Origin: Caulobacteraceae bacterium
GTDB lineage: Bacteria; Pseudomonadota; Alphaproteobacteria; Caulobacterales; Caulobacteraceae
NCBI GenBank assembly: GCA_003164925.1
Contig: PLRV01000012.1
Location: forward strand, 78,812-126,080
Direction: 5' to 3'
Length of the DNA stretch: 47,269 bases
Part shown: one piece after another, positions 1,108 through 27,092 of the stretch
Position numbering within the stretch: position 1 is the stretch's first letter
How the letters are laid out: each line of letters opens with the position of its first letter
Notes under the pieces: model-generated
Database searches by the model: none
The model's input: the letters and a program-made list of their open reading frames with translations, nothing else
Told to the model about the DNA's origin: nothing
Translations under genes and position numbers: made by a program

Positions 1108-1251
1108 ATGGCCAAGAAACCCGAATCCAAGACTGTCGACCCCGATGCCGCTGAACCCCCGCCGAGCGAAGCGGTGAAGGCCAAGGCCGGCGCTCCGATC
1201 CAATTCGGCCCCTCGCCGTCAGCACCCGGCTCGCGGCTCAAAAAGCGCTAG
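1108..1251 (+). CDS. Small basic/proline-rich hypothetical protein (47 aa)
   Basis: This short frame starts at an ATG preceded by a good Shine-Dalgarno sequence (AGGAG, 1098-1102). The product is hydrophilic and probably unstructured. It starts MAKKPESK, is rich in Pro, Ala and Glu in the middle, and ends in RLKKR. Nothing in it points to a function. Its TAG stop lies inside the CTAG (1248-1251) that begins the 167-bp palindromic element, so the element's edge coincides exactly with the end of the gene. Support is the ribosome-binding site and plausible codon use; it is too short for a stronger claim. Confidence 0.55.
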   Translation: MAKKPESKTVDPDAAEPPPSEAVKAKAGAPIQFGPSPSAPGSRLKKR

Positions 1252-1414
1252 TGTGGCGATTCAGAAATTCGCCCCCGGCTTGTGGAGAGCGCGGAGCGAA
1301 TTTCTGAATCTACAGCCACGCTAGAACTATATGATTCTAGTGTGCTTTTTTGAATCTGAAGTTCGCTCTGAGGCTTACCCAATGTGCAGGCGAACTTCAG
1401 ATTCAGCACGCTAG
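1248..1414. repeat. 167-bp double-hairpin element bounded by CTAG, copy 1
   Basis: The element begins and ends with CTAG. It contains two hairpins: arms GATTCAGAAATTCG / CGAATTTCTGAATC (about 1258-1310) and GAATCTGAAGTTCG / CGAACTTCAGATTC (about 1352-1404). Internal CTAGs at 1320 and 1337 flank the 13-base spacer between the hairpins. The same sequence recurs inverted at 27089-27255, with about 14 mismatches in 167 bases and no gaps by eye. It fills the gap between the 47-aa gene and the TonB receptor and could also act as a two-way terminator. It has no coding capacity. The CTAG ends suggest a MITE-like element using a TA target. Confidence 0.88.
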
Positions 1415-1429
1415 GGCCAATATCGCGCC

Positions 1430-3652
1430 TTAGAACAGGTAAGTCGCCTCGAGGCGGCCGGAGATGGGCTCCAGCGGGTGAACCTGCAGGCCTGTGACTT
1501 CGGGGCTGCTCAGACCTGGAGTCAGGCGCGAGGTATAATAATAGGCCGCCGCGTCGGCGTGATCGTTCAGCAGGTTGTAGACGCTGAGCTGAACCTTGAA
1601 CTTGGCGGTGACCTTGTAGCCCAAATCGACATTGACCTCGCTATAGCCCTTGTCTTGCGGGTTTTGGGGGCCGTCGGTGACGGGATAGGGGCCTAGGTCA
1701 CGCCACTGCAGGCCGCCGAACCAGGGGCCGAGGTTGTCCACCAGCACGCCGAACGAGCCGATGAAGCTGGGAGCATTGGCGATGAAGGCTCCACCGACGA
1801 TGCCGAACTGGTTGGCAAGGGTCGTCAGGGAGTCCTGATAGCGGGCCTTGGAGAAGGCGAGGTCGGTGTTCAGCTCGATCCAGCGGAAGGGGCGATACTG
1901 TCCCGACAGCTCCACCCCCTGGCGCCGGCTGGGGGCGCTGGGCTGATCCTCGCCCTGGTCCTGGTCATATTTCAGCTCGGAGGTGAAGTCCTCCTGGAAC
2001 ACGGCGACCTGTACCTGGACCTTGGGAATGAGATTGGTGCGCAGACCGACTTCCTCACCGGTCGCCGGCGACATCAGGGGGGTCTTGATGTTGATGCCCT
2101 GAATCCCTTCCAGCGGCACGGTCTGGAATACGCCGCGCACGTCGTTGGAATGGAAGCCCTGGCCGGCGCTGACATAGAACTCGGTCTTGATGAAGGGGCC
2201 AAGGATAATGCTACCCTTGGGCTGGGGCAGGGTCAGCGAGCCCGAGGCGTTGATGGGTTGGGTCAAGCTGCGGTCGCTTGCCGCGTAATCCTCCTCCCGG
2301 AAGCCCGCCACCGTGCGCAGCCAGGGCGTCCAGCGGGCGGTGTTCTCCACATAGGCGCCCAGGTCGCTCAGGCTCACCCGGTCGGCGCTGCAGGCCCCGC
2401 CGACGGCGGCGTAAGGGATGCCATAGGTTCCGTCGGTGCTGGCCAGCTCGCAATAGTCGAGCACGACGCGCTGAAGGGTGTGGCGCCGGTCGATGTATTC
2501 GCTGTCGTAGCGTTCCTGCAGGCCGAAGGTGGTGTCGGTGTGGATGGTCCCGAAGTCGTGCGTCAGGGTCAGTGCCGCATCGCCGCCAAGGGTCGAACGC
2601 GTCTCGTCCTGCTGCTCCTGGTCGCCGTTGGTCGGGTCGAACAGGTAGTGGGTGAAGTCGTTCCACAGGGTCATGGTGCTGTGGATGGCGTAGGCGTTGG
2701 CGGTGAACTTCCACTGCTCGCCGATCGCGCCGTAATGACCTGACAGGCTGTAGCGCTCCGAGCGGCTGCCATCGGTGGGGTCCAGCACGCCGTAGCGGCT
2801 GATCAAGCCCTGCTGCACGGCATAGACCGACTGGTCGGTCTCAAGATGCCCCGCGCTTTGGTAATACATGGCCGTGACGCTGTAGCCGTCAGCATCCGTA
2901 CCGTGACTGAAGCGGGTCGCCAGATTGATCTTGTTGAAGCCGCCGGCCGGATCCCAAGGACCGTCCACGTGGCCGACCTCGGCCGCCGCCCACAGGCGGT
3001 CATCCGCGTCGAAATGCTGCGTGCCGCCGGCGAACAGGTCCTGATTGCGCAGGGTGCCGACGCTGGCCACGACCTGGTTGGGCAGATCGTTGGTCAAGTG
3101 CACATGGGCCGAGCCCACCGCGCCGTTATCGCCGATCGCGGCGTAGTAGGGGCCCTTGGTGTAGTCGATGCCGCTTAGGATCTGCGGCATGATGAAGTTC
3201 TGGTCCGAATAGCCCTGGCCGTGGGCGTTGGTTGGACGATTGATCGGCATATCGTCAACCGAGCTGGCGAAATCGGTGCCATGATCCAGGTTGAAGCCGC
3301 GCAGCAGGTACTGATTGGCCTTGCCTTCGCCCGAATGGATCGTGACCACCAGGCCCGGAACGGTTTCGTACAGCTGGCCGATGCGATAGATCGGGCGAAG
3401 ATCGATTTCCTTCTCGGTCACCTTGCCCTGGCTCGCGGTGGTCGCGACGCCCAGCAGATTTACCCGCGAGGCGGTGACCACCACTTCATTCTTGGCGGCG
3501 GCCGGCTTGGCTGGGGCGGCTTTCGATGTCGGCGCGACCGGTTGGGCGGTCTGGGCCGCGGCGCCAAAGGCCAGCGCCAGCCCCGCACTCCCGGCCATCA
3601 GGCCCACCAGCCCGTTGCAACGCAGAGGCGCGGAAAACTTTGACCGCGACAT
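1430..3652 (-). CDS. TonB-dependent outer-membrane receptor
   Basis: A 740-aa gated outer-membrane channel that imports an unidentified ligand using TonB energy. A signal peptide (about residues 1-33, ending in AAAQ) is followed by a TonB-box-like VVVTAS segment near residue 57. A plug domain follows, with the pattern YLLRGFNLDHGTDF and DDMPINRPTN. A long beta-barrel ends in EATYLF, a typical outer-membrane C-terminus with a final aromatic residue. There is no STN domain, so it is a plain transporter rather than a transducing receptor. ATG 3652 has an AAGG-type ribosome-binding site about 7 bases upstream. No transport or regulatory partner is adjacent, and the substrate cannot be told from the sequence. 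Confidence 0.9.
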   Translation of the reverse strand: MSRSKFSAPLRCNGLVGLMAGSAGLALAFGAAAQTAQPVAPTSKAAPAKPAAAKNEVVVTASRVNLLGVATTASQGKVTEKEIDLRPIYRIGQLYETVPGLVVTIHSGEGKANQYLLRGFNLDHGTDFASSVDDMPINRPTNAHGQGYSDQNFIMPQILSGIDYTKGPYYAAIGDNGAVGSAHVHLTNDLPNQVVASVGTLRNQDLFAGGTQHFDADDRLWAAAEVGHVDGPWDPAGGFNKINLATRFSHGTDADGYSVTAMYYQSAGHLETDQSVYAVQQGLISRYGVLDPTDGSRSERYSLSGHYGAIGEQWKFTANAYAIHSTMTLWNDFTHYLFDPTNGDQEQQDETRSTLGGDAALTLTHDFGTIHTDTTFGLQERYDSEYIDRRHTLQRVVLDYCELASTDGTYGIPYAAVGGACSADRVSLSDLGAYVENTARWTPWLRTVAGFREEDYAASDRSLTQPINASGSLTLPQPKGSIILGPFIKTEFYVSAGQGFHSNDVRGVFQTVPLEGIQGINIKTPLMSPATGEEVGLRTNLIPKVQVQVAVFQEDFTSELKYDQDQGEDQPSAPSRRQGVELSGQYRPFRWIELNTDLAFSKARYQDSLTTLANQFGIVGGAFIANAPSFIGSFGVLVDNLGPWFGGLQWRDLGPYPVTDGPQNPQDKGYSEVNVDLGYKVTAKFKVQLSVYNLLNDHADAAAYYYTSRLTPGLSSPEVTGLQVHPLEPISGRLEATYLF

Positions 3653-3761
3653 GAATACCTTTCATTCCGTTTGCCGGTTTAGGGCAGGCGTCTCGCATAG
3701 CAATACGGAGCCAAGAATGGTTCCCCCTCAGGGATCGCCATTTTTGCGCTGAAAAGGCCGC

Positions 3762-4589
3762 TCAGCTCGCTTTGACGGCCAGCGGATCGCCGTGCGCGCT
3801 GGCTTGAATGAAGCGACGGTCTTGGCCGAACAGGCGTGCCGCGGTCAGCACGCCGGTGGCGTAGGCGCCGGTGTCCAGTCCCATGCGCACCGGGCCCGCG
3901 TACGGCTCCGGCTCGGGGGTGTGGCCGTGCACCACCATTTTGGAAAAGGGGCGGCGTTCTTCCAGGAACTCGTTGCGGATCCACAGCATGTCCTGCTCGG
4001 TCTGCCGCTCGATGGGCACGCCGGGTCGCAGGCCCGCGTGCACGAAGATGTAGTCGCCGTATTCGACGCACAACTCCAGGTTCTGCAGGAACGCCAGGTG
4101 GCCGGGCGGCATAGCCCTTTCCAGAGCGTCTCGGGTTTCGGTCCACAGATCTGAGGTCGTGCGGGCCTGCGGTGCGGCCACGCCGTAGGACACCAAGGTC
4201 GCGGCGCCGCCATTCTGCAGCCAGGTCGGGCCGAATTCGGGATTGGCCAGGAAGGCCAGCATGGCCTGCTCATGGTTGCCCTTCAAGGCGCGCACCTCCA
4301 CGTTCTCCAGTGCGCAGATACGCATCGCGCATTCGATAACACCCCTGGAATAGGCGCCGCGGTCCACGTAATCGCCCAGGAACACCAGGACCGGCTTCTC
4401 ATCGGAGGGCGTGGCGGCCATGTCCCGTGCGATCTGCCCGAGCAAATCCTCAAGCAGGTCGAGCCGCCCGTGAATATCGCCAATGGCGTAGATCAGCGGC
4501 CCTCCGGTGGAGGGCGGGGATGCGCTGGATCGCCTCTTGGCTCCCCATCCAAACAAACCGACACCTTTCGCACTACGTTCAAGAGCCAT
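3762..4589 (-). CDS. Metallophosphoesterase, Ser/Thr protein phosphatase (PPP) type
   Basis: This is a 275-aa cytosolic phosphatase of the calcineurin-like PPP superfamily, related to PrpA/PrpB and ApaH. All metal-binding motifs are present in order: GDIHGR (about residues 37-42), GDYVDRG, GNHE, the histidine in FVHAGLRPG, and VVHGHTPEP. It could act on phosphoproteins or dinucleoside polyphosphates; the sequence does not decide. ATG 4589 is preferred, giving MALERSAKG at the N-terminus. A TTG at 4613 would add 8 residues. Either start lies within an arm of the palindromic element at 4582-4697, so the element supplies the start codon and untranslated leader. The neighbours, a receptor and a sugar transferase, suggest no pathway. 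Confidence 0.87.
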   Translation of the reverse strand: MALERSAKGVGLFGWGAKRRSSASPPSTGGPLIYAIGDIHGRLDLLEDLLGQIARDMAATPSDEKPVLVFLGDYVDRGAYSRGVIECAMRICALENVEVRALKGNHEQAMLAFLANPEFGPTWLQNGGAATLVSYGVAAPQARTTSDLWTETRDALERAMPPGHLAFLQNLELCVEYGDYIFVHAGLRPGVPIERQTEQDMLWIRNEFLEERRPFSKMVVHGHTPEPEPYAGPVRMGLDTGAYATGVLTAARLFGQDRRFIQASAHGDPLAVKAS

Positions 4590-4697
4590 TTCCGATCTGA
4601 CCGATTCGATCAAATCGGATAAAAATGGCTCTATTTCATATAGTTATAGCATTTTTTGATCCGATAACCGCGTCACACTGATCGGAAAATGCTCTAG
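4582..4697. repeat. 116-bp double-hairpin element related to the CTAG repeats
   Basis: There are two adjacent hairpins. The first has arms AGAGCCATTT (4582-4591) and AAATGGCTCT (4623-4632). The second has AGCATTTT near 4648 pairing with AAAATGCT near 4685-4692. The spacer between them contains TCATATAGTT, the same 10-mer found (as its complement) in the spacer of the 167-bp element at 1248-1414. The right end is CTAG (4694-4697) and forms the TAG stop of the sugar-transferase gene. The left arm contains the ATG of the phosphatase gene. Architecture and linker suggest a common family, although the arm sequences differ. Confidence 0.8.
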
Positions 4698-5269
4698 AAC
4701 CGCACATTCTGACGCCGCACGACCTTGGCCAGCGTCATCATCATAATTCGCAGATCGAACAAAAGACCCCGTCGCCGCAAATATTCGCAGTCGAGACGAA
4801 CCTTCTCGGAAATAGGCAGTTCGTCACGCCCATTGACCTGAGCCCAGCCGGTCAGACCCGGCCGCAAGGCATCCACCCCGGCCTGAACGCGCAGAGCCAC
4901 AAGGTCATCCTGATTGAACAAGGCCGGGCGCGGGCCGACCAGGCTCATCTGACCGACGAGTACGCTCCAAAGCTGCGGCAGTTCGTCCAGACTGCTTCGT
5001 CGCAGGAAGCCGCCGATGGGCGTGAGCCATTTGTCGGGGTCGGTCATCAGATGGGTGGCCACCTGCGGCGTGTCGATGCGCATGGTGCGCAACTTGGGCA
5101 TCAAAAATATCCGGCTGTTGCGCCCCACGCGCTTGGACCAGTGGATCGCCGGCCCCGGCGAACTCAGCCGTACAAGGGCGGCCAGCCCGGCCAATGGCAG
5201 CGCCAGCGTCAGCAGAGCCGCCCCCGCCACGAGCGCGTCGGTGGTTCGTTTAACGGCGTCGCAAGCCAA
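4694..5269 (-). CDS. Bacterial sugar transferase (undecaprenyl-phosphate phosphosugar transferase type)
   Basis: A 191-aa membrane enzyme of the ExoY/WcaJ family, which transfers a sugar-1-phosphate from a nucleotide sugar to undecaprenyl phosphate to start polysaccharide synthesis. One N-terminal membrane segment (about residues 13-33) precedes the catalytic domain. Family motifs are [36 protein letters not shown] and [14 protein letters not shown]. It is a short form without the long N-terminal membrane region of WcaJ. The only in-frame start is TTG 5269, with GAGGAT just upstream; an in-frame stop lies shortly before. Its TAG stop is the terminal CTAG of the neighbouring repeat. No other polysaccharide genes are in the window, so its product is unknown. 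Confidence 0.88.
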
Positions 5270-5416
5270 GCCCGATCCTCGTCATCCATTCCAGCCCGTC
5301 TCCGAACACGGCGATGGGTTAGATGTTTATGCATGAGCCGCGCCAATCGGAAAGTCGCGCGCGCTCGACAACCGGGCGATGGACCGCTAACTCGGCCGGG
5401 CCTTCGGAATGAAAAA

Positions 5417-6472
5417 ATGAACCAGGACGACGCCTCCGCTTCCCCGACCTACGCCGGCCCCGAACGCATCCTGTCCGGGGTGCAGACCTCCGGCGCGCTG
5501 CATTTGGGCAACTACCTGGGCGCCCTGGTCAAGTTCGTCCGGCTGCAGGACCAGGCCGAGTGCCTGTTCTTTCTGGCCGATCTGCATGCCATCACCGCGT
5601 GGCAGGACCCCGAATTGATGGTCCCGCAGATGCGCCAAATCGCGGCGGCTTATATCGCCTCAGGGGTCGATCCGAAAAAGGCGATCATATTTCCTCAGTC
5701 GGCCGTGCACGAGCACGCCGAGTTGGCTTGGATTTTCAATTGCGTGGCCCGTGTCGGCTGGCTTGAGCGCATGACCCAGTTCAAGGACAAGACCGGCAAG
5801 GACCGGGAAGGCGCCTCAGTGGGCCTGTACGACTATCCCGTGCTCCAAGCGGCCGACATCTTGCTGTATAAGGCCACCCACGTGCCCGTGGGCGAGGACC
5901 AGAAGCAGCATCTGGAGCTGACGCGCGATATCGCCCAGAAGTTCAACAACGACTTCTCCGCTCCGGGTTTCTTTCCCCTGGTCGAGCCGGTGATCGAGGG
6001 GCCGGGCGCGCGGGTCATGTCTTTGCGCGACGGCCTGTCCAAGATGTCCAAGTCAGACCCCTCGGACCAGTCGCGCATCAACCTGCTGGATGACGCCGAC
6101 GCCATCGCCCAGAAGATCCGCCGGGCTAAGACCGATCCCGAGCCCCTGCCTGAAACCGTCGAGGACCTGAAGGGCCGGCCCGAGGCGAACAATCTCGTGG
6201 GTATCTACGCGGCCTTGGCAGGGACCGCCAAGGCGCAGGTGTTGGCCGAGTTCGGCGGCAAGGGCTTCGGCATTTTCAAGCCGGCCCTGGCGGAGCTCAC
6301 CGTTCATAAGATCGCGCCGATTGGCGAGGAGATGCGCCGCCTGATGAATGAACCCGCGGAGATGGACCGAATATTGCTGGCTGGCGTGGAAAAGGCTCAG
6401 TCCATCGCCGCCCCGATCCTTGCCGAAACCAAGCGGCTGGTGGGATTCTGGTCGCCGAAGCGGAACGCCTGA
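5417..6472 (+). CDS. trpS: Tryptophanyl-tRNA synthetase
   Basis: This class I aminoacyl-tRNA synthetase charges tRNA(Trp) in the cytosol. It is 351 aa from ATG 5417, normal for bacterial TrpRS. The HIGH-like motif is LHLGNYLG near residue 29, and the KMSKS loop reads KMSKSDPS near residue 208. The Rossmann core between them includes [17 protein letters not shown]. The reading frame stays open a long way upstream, but homology begins only at about residue 14 ([11 protein letters not shown]). That supports ATG 5417 over any upstream start. The gene stands alone and converges on the response regulator, 17 bases apart. Confidence 0.95.
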
Positions 6473-6473
6473 A

Positions 6474-6493
6474 CACCGCGAATCCTGCTCTAG
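6474..6493. repeat. Half-site of a CTAG-ended palindromic repeat
   Basis: The short gap between convergent trpS and the response regulator contains CGCGAATCCTGCTCTAG. This matches the right arm of the hairpin at 20002-20055 (GTGAATCCTGCTCTAA). The CTAG at 6490-6493 includes the TAG stop of the response-regulator gene on the minus strand. Only one arm remains, so this is probably a truncated or solo arm of the same repeat family. Confidence 0.55.
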
Positions 6494-7287
6494 GCCCGTT
6501 TCACCGCCGAGACGAACATATAGCCTTCGTTGCGCACCGTGCGCACGAGATCGCCCTCCACGCGGCGCCCCTCGGTGAGCTTCCGCCGCAGCCGGCTCAC
6601 CTGAACGTCGACCGCTCGGTCGAAGGTGAAGGCCTCGCGCCCGCGCACCAGATGAAGCAGGTGGTCGCGGGTCAGCACCCGGCGAGGATGATCCAGGAAG
6701 GCGCGCAGCAGGGCGAACTCGCTGGTGCTGAGCAGGACAGGCGCGCCGTCCGGCGCCTTCAGTTCATGGGTCCAGACCGACAGGGTCCAGCCGGAGAATT
6801 CGTACCCCTCGTCCGTCGACGCTCGCGCCGGGTCGGTCGTATTCGGCGACGCCGACAGGCGACGCCGCAGGGCGCGAATACGAGCCAGCAATTCGCGCGG
6901 ATTGGCCGGCTTGGACATGTAGTCGTCCGCGCCCAGCTCCAGCCCGACAATCCGGTCGGTGTCGTCGCCGGCGGCCGACAGGATCAGGATCGCCGGCCGG
7001 GCCCTATGGCGTCCGGCGAGCCGCTTGCAGATGCTCAACCCGTCCTCGCCGGGAAGCATCACGTCCAGCACAACGACGTCGACGGCGTTCCGATCGACGA
7101 TCGCATCCACGCTCGCTCCATCGACCGCCCGGAACACCTTCAGGCCGTGTCGCTCGAGAAAATCGGCGATAAGGCCTTGCAAGGTCTCGTCATCGTCGAC
7201 AATAAGGACCGTGGGCGCAGGGGATAGGTCTACGCCATCCGCCCCGCCGCCGGGCTTGGGGTGAGGCCTTTCATCGACGCCTGTCAC
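6490..7287 (-). CDS. OmpR-family two-component response regulator (orphan)
   Basis: A 265-aa DNA-binding response regulator. The receiver domain (about residues 26-140) has acidic residues at DDD 31-33, the phospho-acceptor Asp near 75 in VVVLDVMLPGEDG, and the conserved lysine in MSKPANP. A winged-helix C-terminal domain follows, with LLSTSEFALLRAFLDHPRRVLTRDHLL and a final VRTVRNEGYMF. The start is GTG 7287. The first 25 residues are an unconserved Pro/Gly-rich extension. No histidine kinase is nearby, so its partner must be elsewhere. It is divergent from the autotransporter gene and could regulate it, but that is inference from position only. Confidence 0.9.
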   Translation of the reverse strand: MTGVDERPHPKPGGGADGVDLSPAPTVLIVDDDETLQGLIADFLERHGLKVFRAVDGASVDAIVDRNAVDVVVLDVMLPGEDGLSICKRLAGRHRARPAILILSAAGDDTDRIVGLELGADDYMSKPANPRELLARIRALRRRLSASPNTTDPARASTDEGYEFSGWTLSVWTHELKAPDGAPVLLSTSEFALLRAFLDHPRRVLTRDHLLHLVRGREAFTFDRAVDVQVSRLRRKLTEGRRVEGDLVRTVRNEGYMFVSAVKRA

Positions 7288-7432
7288 GCTGCATTACCCC
7301 GCGCCGCCACAATTTACACAACATGCGTAAGCCAAGCTGATCCGAGCGCCTGATCACCCCAGACCTTGACCAAAACATGTCCTGGTGGCTTGGGTGTCGC
7401 GGATTGTCATACCGGGATTGAATTGGGACACG

Positions 7433-10400
7433 ATGCCGAAAGCTGATCGACACGCCCTGGCGCCGCAGCGCGTTCTTGAACACAAGAGCGGGCGGAGCAT
7501 ACGGTTCCGACTGATGGCCGCTGCCGCCGTCACGCCCTTGTGTGTCTTCGGGCTGCATGGCGTGGCCCGCGCCCAAACGGACACCATCTCCAGCACGGCG
7601 ACCACCGAGCAGTACACCGCCACCGCGGTCAATGGCGGGCCCGGCAACATCGACGTGGCGTCCGGCGGCGCGGTCAATCCGGACGGCGGCACGGCCATCC
7701 TGATGAACAGCAATAACAGCGTGAGCGTCGAAGGCGCCATCACGATCAAGAACGCCAACAATTCGGTTGGCATCCAGGCCCTCAACGGGACGCAAGGTTC
7801 GATCACCGTCACCGGCTCCATAACCGAGACGGAAAGCTACACGCCGGCGACCAACGCCGACGGCTATACCCAGGAGCCCTACGCTTCAGGCTCAGGCCGG
7901 TATGGAATCCAGACTCAGGGATCCTTCATCGGCAACGTCACGATGAACGGTTCGATCTCCGTTCAGGGCAACAATTCCTATGGTGTCTACATCGCCAATG
8001 GTCTGGGCAACCTCTCGAACGTCGGCACACTGACCCTGGGCGCCGTCGGCACCGCCGGCAGCATCAGCGTCACCGGCGACAACAGCGCGGGCGTCTATAC
8101 CGCGGGCGCAATCTACGGCTCCGTGCAGATCATCGACAGCGTATCGGCCAAGGGCCAGAACTCGAACGCGGTCCAGATCACAGGCAATGTCAACGGGTCG
8201 CTGACGGTCTATTCGACCCTGTCGGCCACCGCCTACGCCTCGACCACGCGTCCCACCACCTCAACCCTGCTGAGCAAGGTCGAGGCTGTCCCGGCGCAAG
8301 TCGAACAGGGCGGATCGGCCCTGATCGTGGGCGGCAGTGTGACGGGCGGCATATTCCTGGGCGCGCCGCCGAGCGGCACCGCCACCGGCAGCACCGCCGA
8401 CGTCGATGGCGACGGCATCGCCGACGGCTCGGAAGGCACCTCCTCGTTGGTCACTTACGGCTCCTCCCCGGCGCTTGTGATCGGCCAGAACACCAGTCCG
8501 ATCACCATCGGTGAGTTCGGAGCGTGCAACGCCTCCAGCTCCGGTCCGGGCGACAACTGCTTCGGCCTGATCGTGGAAGGCACGATCTCGGGCAACGGAA
8601 TCTACGACGGGGTGTCCGCCACGGCGGTGGACATCGGACAGGGCGGCGCCGGCGTGACCTTCGCGGGCGGCGTTCGCATTGCGCCGACCTCCACCATCAG
8701 CGCGACCTCCTACGAGGCCAACGCCACCGGCATCCTGATCGAGCCGAACGTCACCATCCCGCTGCTTCAGAACGAAGGCACCATCGAGGCGTCGGTCACG
8801 TCCACCGGCGCGACAAGCGCGAACGCCATTCTGATCGATGCGTGGACCTCATCGACGCCGTTGCCTTCGACGCTGACCAACTATGGCACGATCAACGCCA
8901 CCTCGACCGGCACGGCGGGGTCGTCGTACGCGGTGGTCGATCACAGCGGATCGATCAGCACCGTCAACAACTACGGCACGATCGAGGCGACGATCGCGAC
9001 GCAGAGCCTGGGGGCTACCGCCACCGGCAGCACCGTCGCCATCGACCTGAGCGCCAACACCACCGGCGTCAGACTTTACCAGGCCGTCTTCGGGACGGGC
9101 GCGTCTCCCGTGATCACCGGCGACGTGCTTTTGGGCAGTGGGACCAATTCGGTGGATTTGGAAGCCGGTTCCATCACCGGCCAACTGTCCATGGGATCAG
9201 GCGCCACGGAATCCGCCAGCAACACCAGCAACGGCGTCGGCGGCAGCAGCGGCAGCAGCATCAGCAGTCTGACCATCGACGGCGGCGCCTATGTCCACGG
9301 TGCGGTGACCTATGGCGGGTCGAGCATCAACATCTCTGTCAACGACGGGCAACTGCTGAATACCGCGCCGACGATCATCACGGGGACCAACCTGACCGTC
9401 GGCAGCGCCAGCACCGTGAGTTTCGCGCTCGATCCGGGCCGGGTTTACGTCGCCCCGACCGGCGCAGCGTCGAACGCTCAGTATACGACGAACACCACCT
9501 ACAACATGTCCAAGGTGACGCTCGACAGCGGGGCTACCTTGGGCGTGACCTTCCTTTCGGTCCCGACCAGCATCGAGACCTTCACGGTTATCAAGGCGGG
9601 CGCGCTGTCGGCCGGGGCCACCAACTTTTCGGTCACGACCCCGTTCCTGTTCAGCGCCACCTCCCAGTCCAATCAGGCGGCGGGCACGGTCACCGTTACC
9701 GTCGCGCCCAGGTCGGCGACGGCCTTGGGTCTGAACAAGGCGGAGACCGCGGCTTTGCCGGCGATCTACGCCTCGCTTGGCCAGGACTCCGGCATCCTGA
9801 GCGCTCTGGCCAACGCACCCACCAGCAGCAGCTTCCACCAGTCCTATCAGCAGATGCTGCCGGACTCGGCGGGCGACGTGTTCCAGGTGGTCACGTCCAT
9901 GTCCAAGGCGGTGGCCCGCGCGTCTGTGGGTGCGGCCGGCTTTGACGGTTCCGGTTCGGTGGGCGTGCACGCCAATGCCGACGAAGCCGACGATGAGGAA
10001 GACGAAATCGCCGCGCCCGGCGGACTGTGGGCCAGCGAATATATCATCGGGCTGAATCAGAGCCGCCAGGACAACGAGGCCTACCGCGCGGTCGGTTTGG
10101 GCCTAGTCGCGGGGCTGGACCTGGGCGGCCTGGGGGCGGACGTCTCCTTCGGCAGCGCCAATGTGGTCAAGCCGCATGATCCGGGCGACAGCAATGTCTC
10201 GATCAGCCGGGTGGAGGCGGGTCTTTACGCGACGCCGCAGTTCGGCATCCTGCATACCGAAGCTCGCGTGGCGGGCGGCTACCTGAAGATCTCCGACCGG
10301 CGTGAATTCGCCGCCGACGTGCTCGAGGGCACCGACTCCGCCGTGACGGGGATCTCGCGCACGGCCAACTCGTCATGGAATGGCTACGACTTGAGCGCGC

Positions 10401-19734: not shown

Positions 19735-19736
19735 GG

Positions 19737-19820
19737 TCAGATCCTCTTGAGCGCGAGGGCGTACAGGCCGAATGCGATGAATATCGCGCAGCCCGAGACG
19801 AGGTAGATCAGGTCGAGCAT
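19737..19820 (-). CDS. 27-aa membrane peptide at the head of the kdp operon
   Basis: A short frame starts at ATG 19820 behind GGGAGCC and ends at a TGA 2 bases before the kdpF GTG. The peptide begins MLDLIYLVSG, has one hydrophobic helix through residue 20, and ends in the basic tail ALKRI. The ribosome-binding site, the packing against kdpF and the membrane-helix composition support a real gene. It may be an extra small subunit or a translational-coupling leader for kdpF. I know no characterised function. Confidence 0.7.
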   Translation of the reverse strand: MLDLIYLVSGCAIFIAFGLYALALKRI

Positions 19821-20236
19821 GGCAGGCTCCCGTGTGAGTGCGCGGTCTTACGTCGGCCGACCGTAAAGGTTCGCCGCGCCATCGCAGCTTGCCGAATAAA
19901 GAAAACATAAAGGTCGACGCCGCGCCGCAGTCGCGGATTCACATTTGTGTTCCGTACCCCTTTGCGTCCGGCGCCATCTTGATACCGATCAAATCGCCGG
20001 CTTAGAGCGGGATCAGTTTACGCTGAATCAGCCCGAACCGTGAATCCTGCTCTAAATCAAAAATGCAAAACCTGATTCACGCCCCGAGCCATTCCGGTTC
20101 GAGGCGATCAGGCTCCAGCTTGATGGGCTCTTTATGGCGCCGCCCCGCGCTGCGGATGGAGCCTTTACGGTCCCTTTGCGCATAAGACCGCTCGCTGCGC
20201 TCGTCTTCGGCGGGTGCGGACAGATCGGAGAGTCTT
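19821..20236. other. Intergenic region upstream of kdp, with a palindromic repeat
   Basis: No gene is seen in these 416 bases. The left part should hold the kdp promoter (minus strand) and includes the T-rich box at 19894-19912. At 20002-20055 lies a hairpin with arms TTAGAGCGGGATCA and TGAATCCTGCTCTAA (one mismatch and a one-base offset). A further GTGAATC ... GATTCAC pair spans about 20040-20090. These are single-hairpin relatives of the CTAG repeat family. The right part, 20090-20236, carries the leader of the gene at 20237, with GGAGAG at 20228. Confidence 0.6.
19894..19912 (-). promoter_or_regulatory. Candidate KdpE binding box
   Basis: On the minus strand the sequence reads CTTTATGTTTTCTTTATTC. 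It has two TTTAT half-sites 11 bases apart, in direct orientation, in an otherwise GC-rich region. This resembles the T-rich direct-repeat box bound by KdpE in enterobacteria. It lies about 75 bases upstream of the first peptide start of the kdp operon. The assignment rests on resemblance and position only. Confidence 0.5.
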
Positions 20237-20737
20237 TTGAACAAGTCCCCAGCTTCGCAAGCAGCCTGCGCCGAACCTCCTCAGTGTCCATCGCCCGAGG
20301 TCCAATCTTTCGAGGACGAACCTGCCCAGGTGTGGCGCCGGCTGGTGCGCCTGGCCGGCGGCAGGCCCGACATGGCTATCAGCGTGGCCGGGCCCAACAG
20401 TCTGGACGCCATGGTGGCCCTGTGTCGCGACGGGTTCGAGCGGGTGGAATGCGCCCGCCAGGCCACCTGCGCCTGCGCCGACGAGACGAGCGATGTGCTG
20501 CTGATCGACGGCGGGCGCGACCCAAAGAATCTCGCGGAACTGATCGGCCGAACCGTGCGGCTGCTGCGCGATGGGGGCGTGCTGGGCCTGAGGCTGGCGT
20601 CGGTGAAGGATCAGAGGGCGGCCACAGCGTCGCTGGCGGCGGCAGGGTTCCATATCGTCGGCTGCGCCCAAGGACAGGGCGGCGGCCTTGCGGCCTTCAC
20701 GGTCAAGCGGGCGCAAGCTCTGCGCCTGGCGTCATAA
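20237..20737 (+). CDS. Uncharacterised protein with a Rossmann/methyltransferase-like fold
   Basis: A 166-aa soluble protein starting at TTG 20237, with GGAGAG just upstream. The N-terminal 30 residues are Cys/Pro/Ser-rich and probably flexible. From about residue 35 the pattern (NSLDAMVALCRDGFERVECA, then SDVLLIDGG, then IGRTVRLLRDGGVLGLRLAS) resembles the second half of SAM-dependent methyltransferases. A clear glycine-rich SAM-binding loop is not visible, so catalytic activity is doubtful. It is followed 76 bases later by a small membrane-protein gene on the same strand. No specific function can be given. Confidence 0.65.
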   Translation: MNKSPASQAACAEPPQCPSPEVQSFEDEPAQVWRRLVRLAGGRPDMAISVAGPNSLDAMVALCRDGFERVECARQATCACADETSDVLLIDGGRDPKNLAELIGRTVRLLRDGGVLGLRLASVKDQRAATASLAAAGFHIVGCAQGQGGGLAAFTVKRAQALRLAS

Positions 20738-20813
20738 CCGTCGCAGGAATCCTGAAGCTGGCCACAACCGGCGCCTCGTGTCAGAAGGTTGCGGCCCGCA
20801 CAGGAGTCCCCTC

Positions 20814-21041
20814 GTGAAAGTCGCTACCGCCTTGACCTTGTGCCGGATCGGCGCGGGCCTGACCACAGCAATGCTCGCCGTGGAGTTCTGCGCCTTCTAT
20901 CTGCATCTTTTCGTGCTGCCGGTGGTGGGCATGCCCTTCACGATCGTCCTGACCTTGGCGCCGTCCTTGGCGGGCATATCCGTCTACCAGCGCGCCCTGA
21001 AGGCGGACGCGTCGCAGGCCGAAAAGACCAAGGGCGGCTAG
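20814..21041 (+). CDS. Small two-helix membrane protein (75 aa)
   Basis: It starts at GTG 20814 behind AGGAG (20802-20806). The product has two hydrophobic stretches (about residues 8-32 and 35-54, the latter including FTIVLTLAPSLAGISVY) and a charged C-terminal tail ending EKTKGG. This is consistent with a small inner-membrane protein. No family is recognised. The reading frame extends upstream, but there is no better ribosome-binding site. The next gene, ppa, follows after 132 bases. Confidence 0.6.
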   Translation: MKVATALTLCRIGAGLTTAMLAVEFCAFYLHLFVLPVVGMPFTIVLTLAPSLAGISVYQRALKADASQAEKTKGG

Positions 21042-21173
21042 CGCCTGCCGCAGACGCCGGCGAATTTCTAAATCGCCACGCAGCAGCGCGCCGAGGCCGT
21101 GTCCGAAAACCTTTGTTGCATCGCAAAAGCCGAGGCGATACCCAGGCGGCATCTCGTCTTGTGAAAGCTTTCC

Positions 21174-21707
21174 ATGGACATTAACCGCATCCCTACCGGG
21201 GCCAACCCGCCCTATGACGTCAACGCCGTGATCGAGATTCCTCAGGGCGGCGAGCCTGTGAAGTACGAGATGGACAAGGCGTCCGGCGCCCTGTTTGTCG
21301 ATCGTTTCCTGCACACCGCGATGTTCTATCCGGGCAATTACGGCTTCATCCCCCACACCCTGGCGGCCGACGGCGACCCTTGCGATATCCTGGTGGTCGG
21401 TCCGACCCGCGTGGTGCCTGGCGCGGTCATTCGATGCCGCCCCATCGGCGCCCTGCTGATGGAGGACGAGGCGGGCATGGACGAGAAGATCCTGGCCGTG
21501 CCCGTGGACAAGTTGCACCCCTTCCATTCGGGCATCAGCTCGTGGCGCCAATTGCCGTCGATCATGACTGAGCAGATCGCCCACTTCTTCCAGCACTACA
21601 AAGACCTGGAAAAGGGCAAGGTCACCCATATCACGGGCTGGGCCGAACCTGAGGAGACCGCCGAACTGATCCGCCGCGGCATGGAAGCGGCCAAGAACGC
21701 CGAGTAG
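21174..21707 (+). CDS. ppa: Inorganic pyrophosphatase, family I
   Basis: A 177-aa soluble enzyme that hydrolyses pyrophosphate to two phosphates, pulling biosynthetic reactions forward. The signature DGDPCDILV is present at about residues 64-72. Other conserved segments are NPPYDVNAVIEIPQG, KYEMDKASGALFVDRFL and PGNYGFIPHTL, with the metal-binding aspartates and active-site lysines and tyrosines in place. Length and start fit bacterial family I enzymes. It appears to be a single-gene unit. Confidence 0.96.
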   Translation: MDINRIPTGANPPYDVNAVIEIPQGGEPVKYEMDKASGALFVDRFLHTAMFYPGNYGFIPHTLAADGDPCDILVVGPTRVVPGAVIRCRPIGALLMEDEAGMDEKILAVPVDKLHPFHSGISSWRQLPSIMTEQIAHFFQHYKDLEKGKVTHITGWAEPEETAELIRRGMEAAKNAE

Positions 21708-21868
21708 CTGTGATTGGGCCAGCCGGGCGCCGTGGGGCGTCCGGCGCGCACGGGAACAGCGCAAGCCAGCAGGCTCTGGGAACCCCGTGGCCAAATACGG
21801 CTCGTTCGTAATGAATACGGCGCATGGGTTGCGCCACGCCTTCGCCGCCTTTTAAGCTGGGCGATCAA

Positions 21869-21908
21869 CGAGAAACGCCGGATAGCGTGAGCTAGCCGAC
21901 GTTTCTCG
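21869..21908. terminator. Hairpin downstream of the MucR-like gene
   Basis: A perfect 9-bp inverted repeat, CGAGAAACG / CGTTTCTCG, encloses a 22-base loop. It lies just past the stop of the minus-strand MucR-like gene and about 160 bases after ppa. There is no long T-run, so it may be a weak or factor-assisted terminator serving either direction. Confidence 0.5.
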
Positions 21909-21920
21909 GGTGCGGTTCTG

Positions 21921-22358
21921 CTATTTCTTAGCGGCGGCGCGGGTGGCGCGCGGCTTCTTGGAGGTGCCGCCGCGGCCCAGACCCATGCTCTTGGCCAGGG
22001 CTGAACGGGAGGCCGCGTAGTTCGGCGCCACCATCGGATAGTCCTTTGGCAGCCCCCATTTGGCGCGATAGTCCTCGGGGCTCATATTGTACTGGGTGCG
22101 CAGGTGCCGCTTCAGCGACTTGTAGGACTTTCCGTCCTCAAGGCTGATCAGGTAATCGGGCGTGATCGACTTGCGGACGGGCACCGCCGGCTTGCGCGCT
22201 TCCGGCGCCGGCTGAAGATCCGCCTTACCGAGCGATCCCAAAGCTTTATAGATGGTTTGGATGACCGCGGGCACGTCGGAGGCCGCCACGCTGTTATTGG
22301 ACACATAGGCCGCCGCTATATCGGCAGTCAGGCTAAGAATATCGTTGTTTTCGTCCAT
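21921..22358 (-). CDS. Ros/MucR-family transcriptional regulator
   Basis: A 145-aa DNA-binding protein of the Ros/MucR family, which in alphaproteobacteria binds AT-rich promoters and controls surface, cell-cycle and motility genes. The core SITPDYLISLEDGKSYKSLK is followed by RHLRTQYNMSPEDYRAKWGL and PMVAPNYAASRS, all family hallmarks. Of the Ros zinc ligands, both Cys positions are Ser and Asp (SLED), and the last His is replaced (RTQY); only the His in KRHL remains. Zinc binding is therefore unlikely, as in known zinc-less homologues. ATG 22358 is chosen over an upstream ATG because a strong GGAGGAAG precedes it. A basic C-terminal tail ends RAAAKK. Confidence 0.9.
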   Translation of the reverse strand: MDENNDILSLTADIAAAYVSNNSVAASDVPAVIQTIYKALGSLGKADLQPAPEARKPAVPVRKSITPDYLISLEDGKSYKSLKRHLRTQYNMSPEDYRAKWGLPKDYPMVAPNYAASRSALAKSMGLGRGGTSKKPRATRAAAKK

Positions 22359-22749
22359 CGGCTTCCTCCGAGGTTCCATGCTTGGGCAGATGTCGTCACG
22401 CTTTGGCGTAATTCGCAACTAAAACCAAGCGCAAAATACGACTATTTACAAGAATAGAGCAAAAAGGGTCTCGGGTCTATCCTGGGTCCGCCAAGCGTGG
22501 CCGTCCAGCTGGGATATGCAATGTTATGGCGCCGTCCCTTTTCAAGGAGGTCCGAGCAGAGCGGTCAGCATCGGAAGATGCTTGAGTTTAAGGGATTCTG
22601 GCTGAACCGAAACGGCTGGAGCTCTGCGCCTAAGCCAACGATTCCAAGTTGGGGGTTCGCGGGCCAGTAATATTCGTCCTGACCTTTCTCGTCCATCGCG
22701 CGGCCGGTTCCAGATGAGATCGGTCGCCCTTGCCGGTGGAAGCGGGGCC
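22359..22749. other. Intergenic region with the MucR-like gene promoter
   Basis: No gene is supported here. The part near 22415-22470 is clearly more AT-rich than its surroundings, with several TA steps and a small palindrome (CTATT-6-AATAG at 22442-22457). That suits the minus-strand promoter and possibly autoregulation by the MucR-like protein, whose family favours AT-rich DNA. The rest, up to the TonB receptor stop at 22750, shows no clear hairpin or repeat. Confidence 0.4.
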
Positions 22750-25221
22750 TCAGAACTGCTTGGACAGGACGCCCCGTATGGTGGTCGGCTGTTCGGGCGT
22801 GATTTCCTGGGCTTGCCGGAAGTTGAAAGGGTTGCCGTAGGCGAAGGTGTTGCCACGGGCGTTGGTCGGATTGGACAGGAAGAAAGCCACGCGCCAGCTA
22901 TCCTTCTGCAATTGCGCCGACAAGCGCGTCAGGACGTAGCCGCCTTGGGTTGGAGAGTTTAGACCAAAGGTCAGATGGGAGCGCCCGACGTACTGCGACT
23001 CGGCGAAGGCCAGCGCGGTCAAGTCTCCCCGGAGTCGCCAGCGATAGGCGGCGCGGGCGCCTAGAGACACGTCGGGCACGCCAGGCAGGCCGGCGCCGGC
23101 GGTGAAGCCGGGAGCGGGCCGGATCAGCTCGGGGTGGTCGACCAGGGCCGTGCCCTGTAAGGTGAAACCGGTTAGCGGACGCGCGATCAACTCCAACTCC
23201 GCCCCCACGTTGCGTCCATCGCCCGCATTGGCGGTGTAGGACAGACCCGAGCTCATGAACTGATCTGTCTGGATGTTGCTCCACAGGTCGTAGAACACGT
23301 CCGCGTTGACGCTGAGGCGTCCGTCAAAGGCCGACGCCTTCGCTCCGCCTTCGAAGTTCCACAGATGGTCGCCGCCGAAAAAGCGATGCACGCTTGGCGG
23401 GTTGGACGAGGTGAGGAACACCGTGCCGATTGGGCCTCCGGTGTTGACGCCGCGGGTGCGGCGACCTTCGGCAGCCGTTACATAGAGCGTTTGGGCCGGC
23501 GCCGGCTGGTAGGCCAGGGCGAATTTGGGCGTGAAGCCTGCGCCGCTTAATTGCCCCGAATAGAGGCGATCAGCGTTCTGCAGAGGCGCTGTCACATCTG
23601 ATTTGGTCTCGGCATGGGACCAGTTCAGGCGCCCGCCCGCGGTGGCGGTCAGTCGGGCGGTGATGGCATAGGAGGCGTCCCCGTAGGCGGCCGCGCTGTC
23701 GCGTTGGTCGGTCCGGTTTTCGAGATAGACGGTCTGCGCCCGGACGGAGTTCGTCAGGGCCGCGGAGTCTCCGGCGCGGACAATCGACAAGGTGGTTTCA
23801 TCGGTGGACGATGCGTTCAGACCCGTCAGCCACTGCAGGCGTCCCGTAGAGGCCGAGGAGAGCACCAAATCCTCCGCCAGCATGTTGATGTCTATCGGCT
23901 CCATGTAGGAGCCCGCGGCGGGTGAGCCCAGGCCGAACAGCGGCAGGGCGTTGGAGGCGTCCGAGCGACTGTCGTACTTGTGCTGAACGAAGGAGGTGGT
24001 GGACTTCAGATCGCCCCACAGCGCGTTGTGCTCGACATCCAGCGCGGTGGACGTGAAGTAGTTGGTGGAGCTTTCGAGAATCTGATTGGCGACGTGCAGG
24101 CGCCCGCCGCCCGGCGTGACATATTGGGCGTTCGTGGCATCGATCGACTGGACGGCGGTCGTGAGCGTGACCAGCCAGTCCTGACCCAAAGCCGCGCGCA
24201 CGGCCGCGCGCCCGCCCTCGCGCACGGTCTGGTCGACATTGTTCAGGCGCAGGGCGCTTTCGTCGATATAGCCGCCATCGACCGTCTTATAGGCCACCGC
24301 CCGGACGCCGATCTGGTCCACGCTCAAGGGCGCGTTGACCATGGCCTCGTATTCCTGGCTCGGCGCGCCCGCGTTTGTCAGGCTGGCGCCCGCGCGCGCA
24401 TAGCCCGACCAGGCGTCCAGCGAGGGCTTGTTCGTGATGATTCTGTAGATGCCGCTGATCGCCCCGCCGCCGTACAGGGCGCCCTGGGGGCCGCGCATGA
24501 CCTCTATCGCCTCCACGTCCGCCAGCTGAAGGTCCGGGTCGGGGGCGTTGTAGGTGATCGGCGCGTCGTCCAGATAGATGCCGACCGTGGACTGGGTGCG
24601 GCCGGTGAACACGCCGTCGGACAGGCCGCGCAGGAGGATTTTGTCCCGGCCCAGGCCCAGATTGGTGGTGGATAGCCCCGGAATCTGCACAGCCACGTCC
24701 CCCACGTCCAGCGCCCCGGCTTCCTCCAGCTGGGATTGGTTCAGGGCGCTGACGGCATAGGGCAGCGAACCGATCATGGCGGCGCGCTTGGTGGTGGTCA
24801 CCACCACCTCGGGCGTGTCCGGCAAGTCCACTGCCGGGGCCTGCCTGGACCCAGGTCCCGGCGCGGCGGGCGCTGGCGGCGCGGGGCGGGACAGGGCGAA
24901 CACTCGCACCGTGTCCGGCGCCACCCGTCGAAAGCCACACCCGGTCTTGGCCAGCAAGCGGGTCAGCCCGTCTTCGACCGTGAATCGGCCGCTCAGGCCA
25001 GCTGTGGTCCCGCGGCAGGCATTGACGCCGCCGATCGATATATTGGCCTGTACGGCGAAGTCTATCAGGGCCTCGGACGCGCTCATGGGCCGGATCGAAA
25101 AGACCGATAGCCTGGCAGGCTGGGCCTGGGCCTGGGCGATTGCGATGGCCGTGCCGACGCAATGGGCCGTAAGCAAGCGGGCCGGCCAAGCCTTTGCCTT
25201 GAAACACCGCCCTATCGTCAA
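22750..25221 (-). CDS. TonB-dependent receptor with N-terminal STN signalling domain
   Basis: An 823-aa outer-membrane receptor of the FecA class. A signal peptide (about residues 1-34) is followed by an STN domain (about 45-110, FAVQANISIGGVNACRG and DGLTRLLAKTGCGFRRV). This is the domain that contacts FecR. A Pro/Ala linker and TonB box (EVVVTTTKRA) lead into the plug (LRGLSDGVFTGRTQS, VEVMRGPQGALYGGG-type motif at IEVMRGPQGALYGGGAI). The barrel ends RGVLSKQF with a final Phe. The start used is TTG 25221, 16 bases after the fecR stop. The STN domain and the fecR neighbour imply substrate-triggered signalling; the ligand (siderophore or other) is unknown. Confidence 0.9.
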   Translation of the reverse strand: MTIGRCFKAKAWPARLLTAHCVGTAIAIAQAQAQPARLSVFSIRPMSASEALIDFAVQANISIGGVNACRGTTAGLSGRFTVEDGLTRLLAKTGCGFRRVAPDTVRVFALSRPAPPAPAAPGPGSRQAPAVDLPDTPEVVVTTTKRAAMIGSLPYAVSALNQSQLEEAGALDVGDVAVQIPGLSTTNLGLGRDKILLRGLSDGVFTGRTQSTVGIYLDDAPITYNAPDPDLQLADVEAIEVMRGPQGALYGGGAISGIYRIITNKPSLDAWSGYARAGASLTNAGAPSQEYEAMVNAPLSVDQIGVRAVAYKTVDGGYIDESALRLNNVDQTVREGGRAAVRAALGQDWLVTLTTAVQSIDATNAQYVTPGGGRLHVANQILESSTNYFTSTALDVEHNALWGDLKSTTSFVQHKYDSRSDASNALPLFGLGSPAAGSYMEPIDINMLAEDLVLSSASTGRLQWLTGLNASSTDETTLSIVRAGDSAALTNSVRAQTVYLENRTDQRDSAAAYGDASYAITARLTATAGGRLNWSHAETKSDVTAPLQNADRLYSGQLSGAGFTPKFALAYQPAPAQTLYVTAAEGRRTRGVNTGGPIGTVFLTSSNPPSVHRFFGGDHLWNFEGGAKASAFDGRLSVNADVFYDLWSNIQTDQFMSSGLSYTANAGDGRNVGAELELIARPLTGFTLQGTALVDHPELIRPAPGFTAGAGLPGVPDVSLGARAAYRWRLRGDLTALAFAESQYVGRSHLTFGLNSPTQGGYVLTRLSAQLQKDSWRVAFFLSNPTNARGNTFAYGNPFNFRQAQEITPEQPTTIRGVLSKQF

Positions 25222-25237
25222 CTCATCCGCCCTCGGG

Positions 25238-26251
25238 TCAGCGCTGGGGGGTGCGCTCCCGAAGGGTTATGACGCCATCTTCCGCGTTTGCCGAGACCGG
25301 AAGCAGCCCTGTCAGGCGGTTAACGACCGCAGATTCGCCGGCCATCGTCAGAACGCCTGAGAACCGCAGGGCGCTGGCGGCGCCCTCGGTTTTGATCGGC
25401 GCCGAATAGTAGCGGCTCAGGTCGGAGGCCACCTGGGTCAGCGAACGGTTTCGATAGATAAGGCGGCCCTCACGCCAGCTGAACGCGTCGTCGGCCGTGA
25501 CCTCGGCCACCTGCGATGTCGGGCTGCCCTGACGGTGGTTGAGCTGACGTCCAGCCGAGAGCGCGACTGTCTGGCCCGCGGCGCCGGCAGTGGGAGCAAC
25601 CTCGACCTGACCTTCGCGCACCGTGACATGGAGCATGTCGTTGGCGCGCAGGACATCGAACTGGGTCCCCACGTCGCGGATTGTACGGTCGCCGACCTGA
25701 ACTACGAACGGACGGGCGGGGTCATGGACGACGGTGAACGCCGCCTCCGAGCCTTCGACAAGGTCGACCTCGCGCCGACGACCGTCGATCAGGACCGAGA
25801 CCTTCGAGCCGCTGTTCAAATCGATCCGGGTGCCGTCAGCGAGGTTCAAGACGCGACGTTCGCCCTTGGCTGTGGCGTAGACAGTTGGCGGCGGGACGCG
25901 GAAAAGGCTGAATGGACCTACAAAAAGCAACAAGGAGGCGGCTGCGGCGGCTGCGGCGGCCCACCACGCCGGACCTGCGGATGGGCGGCGCGCCCGAAAA
26001 GAAAGGCTGATTGCGGAAGGGGCGACGCCCATCCGGCGCAACGTGGGCGATTGGCTGCCGATTTCGGTCCACAGCGCCTCAGCGGCGTCGAAGGCGGCCC
26101 GGTTGCCTTGGGCCGCCCTCAGCCAAGCTTCGAACGCCTGCCAATCCCGTTCCGCTTGCGAATCGGATACCGCCGCGTGCAGACGCACCACCCATTCGGC
26201 CGCGGCCTCATAGGTCGGATCCTGCCAATCAATGTCGTTATGCGACGGCAT
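25238..26251 (-). CDS. FecR-family anti-sigma/regulatory protein
   Basis: A 337-aa single-pass membrane protein. The cytoplasmic N-terminal domain (EAAAEWVVRLHAAVSDSQAERDWQAFEAWL) is the family's sigma-binding part. A membrane helix lies near residues 93-112 (WWAAAAAAAASLLLFVGPFS). The periplasmic FecR domain follows (YATAKGERRVLNLADGTRIDLNSGS), ending in the short C-terminal domain (SLTQVASDLSRYYSAPI). ATG 26251 is preferred, as homology begins at about residue 12. It relays receptor occupancy to an ECF sigma factor, but the adjacent sigma gene is decayed, so the partner is either lost or encoded elsewhere. It lies between the sigma remnant and the receptor gene. Confidence 0.9.
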   Translation of the reverse strand: MPSHNDIDWQDPTYEAAAEWVVRLHAAVSDSQAERDWQAFEAWLRAAQGNRAAFDAAEALWTEIGSQSPTLRRMGVAPSAISLSFRARRPSAGPAWWAAAAAAAASLLLFVGPFSLFRVPPPTVYATAKGERRVLNLADGTRIDLNSGSKVSVLIDGRRREVDLVEGSEAAFTVVHDPARPFVVQVGDRTIRDVGTQFDVLRANDMLHVTVREGQVEVAPTAGAAGQTVALSAGRQLNHRQGSPTSQVAEVTADDAFSWREGRLIYRNRSLTQVASDLSRYYSAPIKTEGAASALRFSGVLTMAGESAVVNRLTGLLPVSANAEDGVITLRERTPQR

Positions 26252-26343
26252 GTTTTGCTTGAGCGCCCAGCACGACCCTACCGGTACAGTTTGATTGACG
26301 CCACCGAGACAATATTTCCCCCATAACCACCCGCGCCGATTCA

Positions 26344-26601
26344 TCATTCGGCGCCTCGCAGCTTTTTGAGCAGTTGTTTAAGCGCTGCGCCGACCTGCTT
26401 TTCCACCGTTTTGCGCGAGACGCCAAGAGTCGGCGCCGTCTTCTCTCGGCCCAGCCCTCCAATCTGTGCATTTCGAAGGTGCGGCGGGTGCGCGGCGGCA
26501 GGCTCCGGATGGCTTCCAGCGTCCGGCGCGCCCAGATGGGGGCGCATCAGCTCGGCTAACGGCCCCTCATCCGGCTGGCGACTATGTGAAACGCTATCCA
26601 C
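26344..26601 (-). pseudogene. Remnant of a FecI-type ECF sigma factor gene
   Basis: The 3' end encodes a clear sigma region 4 helix-turn-helix (GREKTAPTLGVSRKTVEKQV, then ALKQLLKKLRGAE). Directly upstream, the matching sequence TLEAIRSLPPRTRRTFEMHR continues in another frame (about 26457-26522), then the first frame resumes. Two compensating frameshifts are therefore needed to restore homology. Region 2, which binds the -10 element and RNA polymerase, is absent; no trace is seen in the 250 bases upstream. The position in front of fecR and the receptor is the usual place of the sigma gene. The remnant is likely non-functional. Confidence 0.78.
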
Positions 26602-26741
26602 GAGGGAGCTTCTTCACCGTTTCAATAGGGCCGATAGCGCGGAGCTCGGACACAGCCTAGACCTCTCGGGTTGGGTTCCCGGCTTTGAGGATGGGAACCT
26701 ATGGGCCGTTGGCGCGATCCTTCAAGCCCAGCCGTTCGCCG

Positions 26742-26759
26742 CACCCCCGATAAATTTCC
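26742..26759 (-). promoter_or_regulatory. GGAAAT promoter-like element, site 1
   Basis: On the minus strand GGAAATTTATCGGGGGTG lies about 140 bases upstream of the sigma remnant. A similar sequence, GGAAATATTGTCTCGGTGG, occurs at 26301-26319, 50 bases upstream of the fecR start. GGAAAT-like -35 elements are used by several FecI-type sigma factors, so these could be old autoregulatory promoters of the cassette. The evidence is similarity between two short sites only. Confidence 0.35.
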
Positions 26760-26849
26760 TTTGATGCGACGAGACGTTACATTCCGGTTATCTTGCTGGA
26801 ACAGGGACCCCCTACATTGCGCTTGCCGCAGCAAGGCAGGAGACGCGGA

Positions 26850-27092
26850 ATGCTCCGAATGATTTCGGTGACCCCGGCAGGCGACGGCTGGACGGTCAGC
26901 GCCGAGCCCTTTGATAACGAGATGCTGTTCTTCAGTGGGGCCAAGGCGGAATCCGCCGCGCGTCGCATGGGCCGAACCATCGCGAAAGGCGGGGAGACGG
27001 CTGAAATCAGCATTTTCCTGCGCGACGGCAGTCTGGCCGCTCGTTTTGTCTGTCCCGCCATCGATGGCGTTGCGGACGAACGAGCCATCTAG
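26850..27092 (+). CDS. Small DUF2188-like protein (80 aa)
   Basis: It starts at ATG 26850 behind AGGAG (26838-26842). The protein has the layout of the DUF2188 group: an N-terminal strand with GDGWTVSAEPFDNEM, a helix AESAARRMGRTIAK, and a strand pair ending SIFLRDGSLAARF. The family has no known function; members are small soluble proteins, sometimes stress-related. The TAG stop is part of the CTAG that begins the second 167-bp palindromic element. It is divergent from the sigma remnant. Confidence 0.65.
   Translation: MLRMISVTPAGDGWTVSAEPFDNEMLFFSGAKAESAARRMGRTIAKGGETAEISIFLRDGSLAARFVCPAIDGVADERAI

Follow-up and report, generated by a model that had tools for sequence, protein, structure and literature searches.

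Palindromic elements end at stop codons in the window

A 47,269-nucleotide stretch of contig PLRV01000012.1 from a Caulobacteraceae bacterium (the window; assembly GCA_003164925.1, positions 78,812 to 126,080) carries palindromic elements that end in CTAG and meet the stop codons of adjoining genes. The host genome from which the window comes (G000) is 3.44 Mb in 100 contigs, and genes were called with a custom codon-usage script trained on it. A sequence-only reading of the window reported four genes whose TAG stops lie in the terminal CTAG of a palindromic element or its half-site. The four positions are exact: CTAG lies at 1248-1251, 4694-4697, 6490-6493 and 27089-27092, and each contains the TAG stop of an open reading frame (ORF) (Table 1). 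Three of the four terminate full elements, but the CTAG at 6490 belongs only to a probable half-site with no inverted repeat adjoining it. CTAG was said to be rare, which is correct for the window as a whole (28 found versus a shuffle mean of 63.5) but less so for stops: in a 447-kb sample of G000, 39/342 well-scored genes end in CTAG.

The sugar transferase and the response regulator are solid genes and the 77-aa gene scores as coding, but the fourth gene, a 47-aa ORF, is doubtful. Its coding signal is close to nil (score 1.4), it matches no family and the loci compared contain no convincing homologue. The label "DUF2188-like" for the 77-aa gene was not confirmed, as the protein matches no Pfam or NCBIfam family. 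Two of the four cases first noted are weak.

Table 1. Elements and the stop codons that they overlap in the window (positions counted from its first base).
Feature	Position	Strand	Basis
Family A element, 167 bp, five GANTC	1248..1414	+	Inverted-repeat and genome comparison
TAG stop of 47-aa ORF (doubtful gene), left element end	1249..1251	+	ORF call
Family A linker AACTATATGATT, joining hairpins 1 and 2	1325..1336	+	Sequence
Family B element, 118 bp, two hairpins and linker, one GANTC	4580..4697	+	Inverted-repeat and genome comparison
TAG stop of sugar transferase (ORF 4694-5269), right terminal CTAG of the family B element	4694..4696	-	ORF call, Bac_transf match
Probable half-site, 18 nt, 17 identical to a full-element end elsewhere (L187:14225)	6476..6493	-	Sequence comparison
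TAG stop of response regulator	6490..6492	-	Gene model, family match
Family D element, 117 bp, two-hairpin plan, three GANTC	20002..20118	+	Sequence comparison
Family A element, inverted copy, 167 bp	27089..27255	-	Genome comparison
TAG stop of 77-aa gene (26859-27092), terminal CTAG of the inverted family A element	27090..27092	+	Coding score

Element ends coincide with TAG stops genome-wide

BLAST was used to locate the elements throughout G000, and their ends were set by hand. The catalogue holds 37 places, 27 of family A and 10 of family B. Excluded were second hits of one place, weak family B hits of 15-17 nt, one 12-14-nt linker hit and family A hits shorter than about 45 nt; truncated copies (for example L015, L070, L072 and L074) were retained. 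The terminal CTAG is the exact TAG stop of an adjoining gene in 18/37 copies (13/27 for family A and 5/10 for family B). At two places, L011 and L071, both element ends are stops and each place serves two convergent genes. Among the ends that face the 3' end of a gene, 20/39 fall exactly at the stop and the others lie 2 to 1,058 bp away.

The reading frame into the element provides an internal control. Runs of at least 60 open, coding-like codons lead into 18 of the 57 intact CTAG ends (74 ends in total), and these runs are distributed 18, 0 and 0 between the frame that reads TAG and the other two frames. These counts uphold the initial claim that the coincidence exceeds chance. CTAG background counts were taken from the 447-kb sample of G000. 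Among 45 non-coding CTAGs followed by AGC, TGT or TGC, some of them internal ends or chance matches, an outer-side stop occurs at 11 and an inner-side stop at none. No catalogued copy lies within a called gene, compared to 121/265 plain CTAGs, and 6/37 copies sit between two divergent genes. In the same genome, 34/144 plain non-coding CTAGs coincide with stops (36/146 under slightly different edge rules), so the 18/37 elements at stops represent a roughly twofold excess (p=0.004).

Element-free sites in relatives keep the position of the stop

The sequence-only reading named a different stop at a different position in element-free orthologues as evidence against it; at the sites that could be compared the stop is at the same codon, with one exception considered below. 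In G002, a genome of the same genus, the L011 site has no element and the response regulator ends ...DEMTA-TAG (...GCT TAG), equal in length to the G000 protein, which ends ...ERLLG-TAG. The convergent lysC of G002 ends in the response regulator's own TTAG, and in G000 both genes end in TAG, one at each element end. At L019, the citrate synthase gene gltA ends at one and the same codon in G002 (GGC TAG) and in G000 (GCC TAG, with the element), and this codon is TGA or TAA in other relatives. At L024, tolQ ends in TGA in G002 and G003, three bases ahead of the next ATG, and G000 has TAG and the element there. Three same-genus orthologues of the response regulator at 6490 have TGA at the same codon. 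The codon comparisons for gltA, tolQ and the 6490 gene were judged by eye. L016, L020, L023 and the family A site of the window gave no usable stop comparison in relatives, and L071 has no syntenic relative among 12.

Protein ends give the same picture. The rlmE product at L065, whose closest named relatives are Caulobacteraceae, ends ...FKGR-TAG with the element. Of 80 relatives the 42 closest were compared, and 25 of them have the motif F[KR][GA]R followed by a stop. These 25 stops are 12 TAG, 11 TGA and 2 TAA; one of them (L235) is a C-TAG, and the flank examined there shows no element. Stop-overlapped proteins reach the end of their Pfam family in citrate synthase (357/357), FtsJ (181/181), Nramp (356/357) and the sugar transferase (Bac_transf, 178/179 positions). 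The Pfam scan covered 20 stop-overlapped proteins; 3 were without a match or below the cut-off, and some matches are to internal domains that are uninformative about the C-terminus.

IS630 transposons share targets and ends with family B

IS630-type DDE_3 genes are present in 16 of the 61 genomes searched. TA-anchored inverted ends were located at 15 loci, which correspond to 12 distinct IS630 copies. The ends are uniform: 20/24 start TA-GAGC, and each of the 12 copies has a GANTC within 40 bases of one end. The targets are CTAG in seven copies, TTAG in three, and TTAA and TTAT in one each. Three of the 12 copies are at a stop codon, as scored with a gene model trained on G019, a relative of G000, although the copies span several genomes. 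One end of family B is identical at 17/20 positions to the end of IS630 copy L308, from another genome of the family, a match equaled by none of 3,965 TAG-anchored 20-mers in a G000 sample. The other family B end matches IS630 at 15/20 positions, and 0.3% of the TAG 20-mers are as good. In G019, the full IS630 transposon L330 lies between two convergent genes and supplies TAG to both.

Two DDE_3 places were found in G000. At one of them (L319, contig C20) the ORF matches NCBIfam transpos_IS630 over positions 10-299 of 299; the sequence stops 21 bases beyond it, presumably at the contig end, before terminal repeats. A search of G000 for an autonomous copy with CTAGTGT ends returned 75 sites (289 for a control pattern) and no transposon-like pair outside the catalogue, although contig ends could hide one.

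Anatomy of the element families

Family A consists of two CTAG-hairpin-CTAG units joined by the linker AACTATATGATT, and most copies have CTAG at both outer ends. Family B follows the same plan with a related linker core, CATATAGTT; its window copy has CAAG in place of CTAG at the left end. RNA folding returns two hairpins and a linker for each family, with z = -11.6 for A and -6.0 for B versus shuffles. Two further families in G000, C and D, have the same two-hairpin plan. The window copy of family D ends in TTAG and CCAG, and no stop was called there. At least five other close copies of family D exist in G000, with members on contigs C52, C55 and C74. A loose inverted-repeat scan recovered 8/95 CTAG pairs, and 15 other palindromic tetranucleotides gave 0 to 2.2%; small gaps in the arms hid the elements from a strict scan. 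An Rfam scan of the window gave no match at the gathering threshold.

Seven family A places (L019-L023, L026 and L028) are single hairpins of ~72 bp that combine one arm from each hairpin. Four of the seven have a common junction, an indication that this short form was itself mobile. A ~28-bp remnant at L114 (contig C74 of G000, ~93.4 kb, minus-strand CTAGTGT) retains the outer ends of family A only, with CTAGTGTGCTGGATC fused to GCCACACTAC. In the flanks of L013, L065 and L197, elements of different families adjoin, as if older ones served as landing sites. Genome G010, from another genus, has its own A-type set (10 matches, L088-L099) with differing hairpin arms; some of these seem to sit at gene ends, and a DDE_3 search of G010 was without a match. 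Ten plasmid records match family A in part with 72-78% identity and two match part of family B, and none of these matches is within an annotated transposase.

Discussion

The palindromes are probably non-autonomous mobile elements related in type to the CcrM-associated intergenic repeats (CIR) of Caulobacter, with stops rebuilt as TAG on insertion and at least family B mobilized in trans by a transposase of the IS630/Tc1-mariner type. Family A would join this scheme through its architecture and its target. The transposase is expected to insert at the TA of YTAR, with CTAG preferred, and to duplicate TA rather than CTAG. An element of the form 5'-G...C-3' placed at TA gives TA+G = TAG at the left junction and C+TA (TAG when read on the opposite strand) at the right, whatever base came after TA. 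Because both junctions read TAG into the element, a TAG or TAA stop that is hit is remade as TAG at the same codon. Stop codons are thus among the few gene-adjacent landing places that leave a protein unchanged. Where two convergent genes share a stop, as at the response regulator and lysC, both stops would be rebuilt. Gene-breaking insertions are not seen and were presumably lost, which would attribute the bias to purifying selection. The core proposal of the sequence-only reading was insertion at the TA of C-TAG, with TAG remade and the protein spared, and it is supported by the 18:0:0 frame distribution, the same-codon stops at same-genus empty sites, the Pfam family ends and the YTAR targets of IS630.

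Several observations weigh against this interpretation. Distinct paired ends came from just 12 of the 29 IS630 places examined. Family A ends match the best IS630 end at 10/20 positions, and 60% of TAG 20-mers are as good; the ends of families C and D are not significant against IS630 either (15% and 5-35% of 20-mers as good). There is no DDE_3 match in 5 of the 8 genomes that carry A-type elements. G019 has IS630, yet no such miniature inverted-repeat transposable element (MITE) end was seen in 400 kb of its largest contig. Empty sites have one NTAG and G000 has two, and duplication of TA and duplication of CTAG would look alike. The TGA stops of relatives at tolQ and the 6490 gene mean that a switch of stop codon preceding insertion must be assumed. 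The L009 protein, the exception mentioned above, falls 7 residues short of its counterparts in G001 and G002. Finally, in 400 kb of G019, where only 4 CTAG-AGC sites occur, 47/135 non-coding CTAGs are at stops, and 18/37 is not a significant excess over this (p=0.13). The genome-wide count that was proposed to settle the matter shows a modest enrichment over the genome's own CTAG background but not over that of the relative. CTAG targeting and the loss of gene-breaking insertions may therefore explain most of the stop preference.

The strongest competitor is mobilization by an IS5-type enzyme, at least for family A, with a 4-bp CTAG or YTAA duplication. Stops would then be rebuilt because a duplicated CTAG has TAG on both sides. 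Most A copies have CTAG at their two outer ends, in keeping with this mechanism, and a precedent is MITEPsy1 of Pseudomonas (IS5-like, PMC3189936), a short MITE that, as described there, targets CTAG or YTAA, as here, with a 4-nt duplication. MITEPsy1 differs in its ends, and the passages on it mention no effect on stops. The A-bearing genomes without a DDE_3 match make an IS5-type enzyme a fair rival for family A. Against it, family B has the architecture of A, a related linker and IS630-like ends, and overall we consider an IS5-type enzyme unlikely, though a serious contender.

A somewhat less likely alternative is that the elements seek stops or 3' ends actively, or are kept there since their hairpins end or protect mRNA. 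The roughly twofold excess over the genome's own plain non-coding CTAGs and the very stable hairpins are what this explanation would predict. It is opposed by the nonsignificant comparison with G019 and by the copies between divergent genes. In a terminator scan only one terminator-like site touches element A, and 4 sites were found versus 2.7 expected.

Repetitive extragenic palindromic (REP) sequences mobilized by a REP-associated tyrosine transposase (RAYT, Y1) are a very improbable source. Like the elements here, the GTAG-tagged REPs described in PMC3733652 are palindromic hairpins near gene 3' ends, with a foot marked by a conserved tetranucleotide, and they "often provide" flanking ORFs with their TAG stop. 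The GTAG tag is one-sided, whereas the tetranucleotide here is CTAG at both feet, within symmetrical DDE-like ends of elements of 117-167 bp, and the family B ends are IS630-like. Most improbable of all is that the elements inserted near gene ends and brought their own stops, truncating or extending the proteins: the short L009 protein would fit, but element-free relatives stop at the same codon (L011, L019, L024 and the 6490 gene), the rlmE C-terminus is the usual one and the frame control gave no coding run in the other two frames.

CIR were introduced by Chen & Shapiro in 2003 (via PMC2229807 and PMC10969869). Compared by description, CIR and the elements here both have two long inverted-repeat arms and a linker, contain GANTC (five in the window's A element, one in B and three in D), are intergenic and occur in Caulobacter and relatives. 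CIR are ~110 bp, close to B (118 bp) and D (117 bp) and shorter than A (167 bp). PMC10969869 treats CIR as strictly intergenic MITEs; the copies here likewise stay outside called genes although 18 overlap a stop. According to PMC2229807, more evidence is needed for the mobility of CIR. The passages on CIR in these sources do not mention CTAG ends, stop overlap or a transposase, which are features of the elements here. IS630 is reported to prefer the TA in CTAG (PMC2170065, PMC6811581), and RUP of pneumococcus is a MITE linked to IS630/Tc1-mariner (PMC2229807). The IS630 copies of the same bacterial order resemble family B in their ends and their YTAR/CTAG targets; the elements here differ from IS630 and its MITEs in the two-hairpin architecture and the unmatched ends of family A. 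Among the open-licence papers listed, no work joining CIR-type repeats, IS630 and rebuilt stops was recognized from titles and abstract openings.

A broader reading, which we offer tentatively, is that a class of alphaproteobacterial CIR repeats may be IS630-type MITEs whose ends are built for harmless insertion at gene ends, even at shared stops, and whose hairpins may be recruited as 3' ends. A transposase class is proposed here for at least one CIR-like family. A simple sequence logic would account for the clustering of small palindromic repeats at the 3' ends of genes: the target plus the element's first base remake the stop. This logic predicts frame-specific stop-codon junctions for any YTAR/CTAG-targeting transposon and, if true, other TA-targeting transposons with a terminal G should show the same stop-codon footprint. 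TAG stops that adjoin repeats should be interpreted with caution, as they may be records of old insertions.

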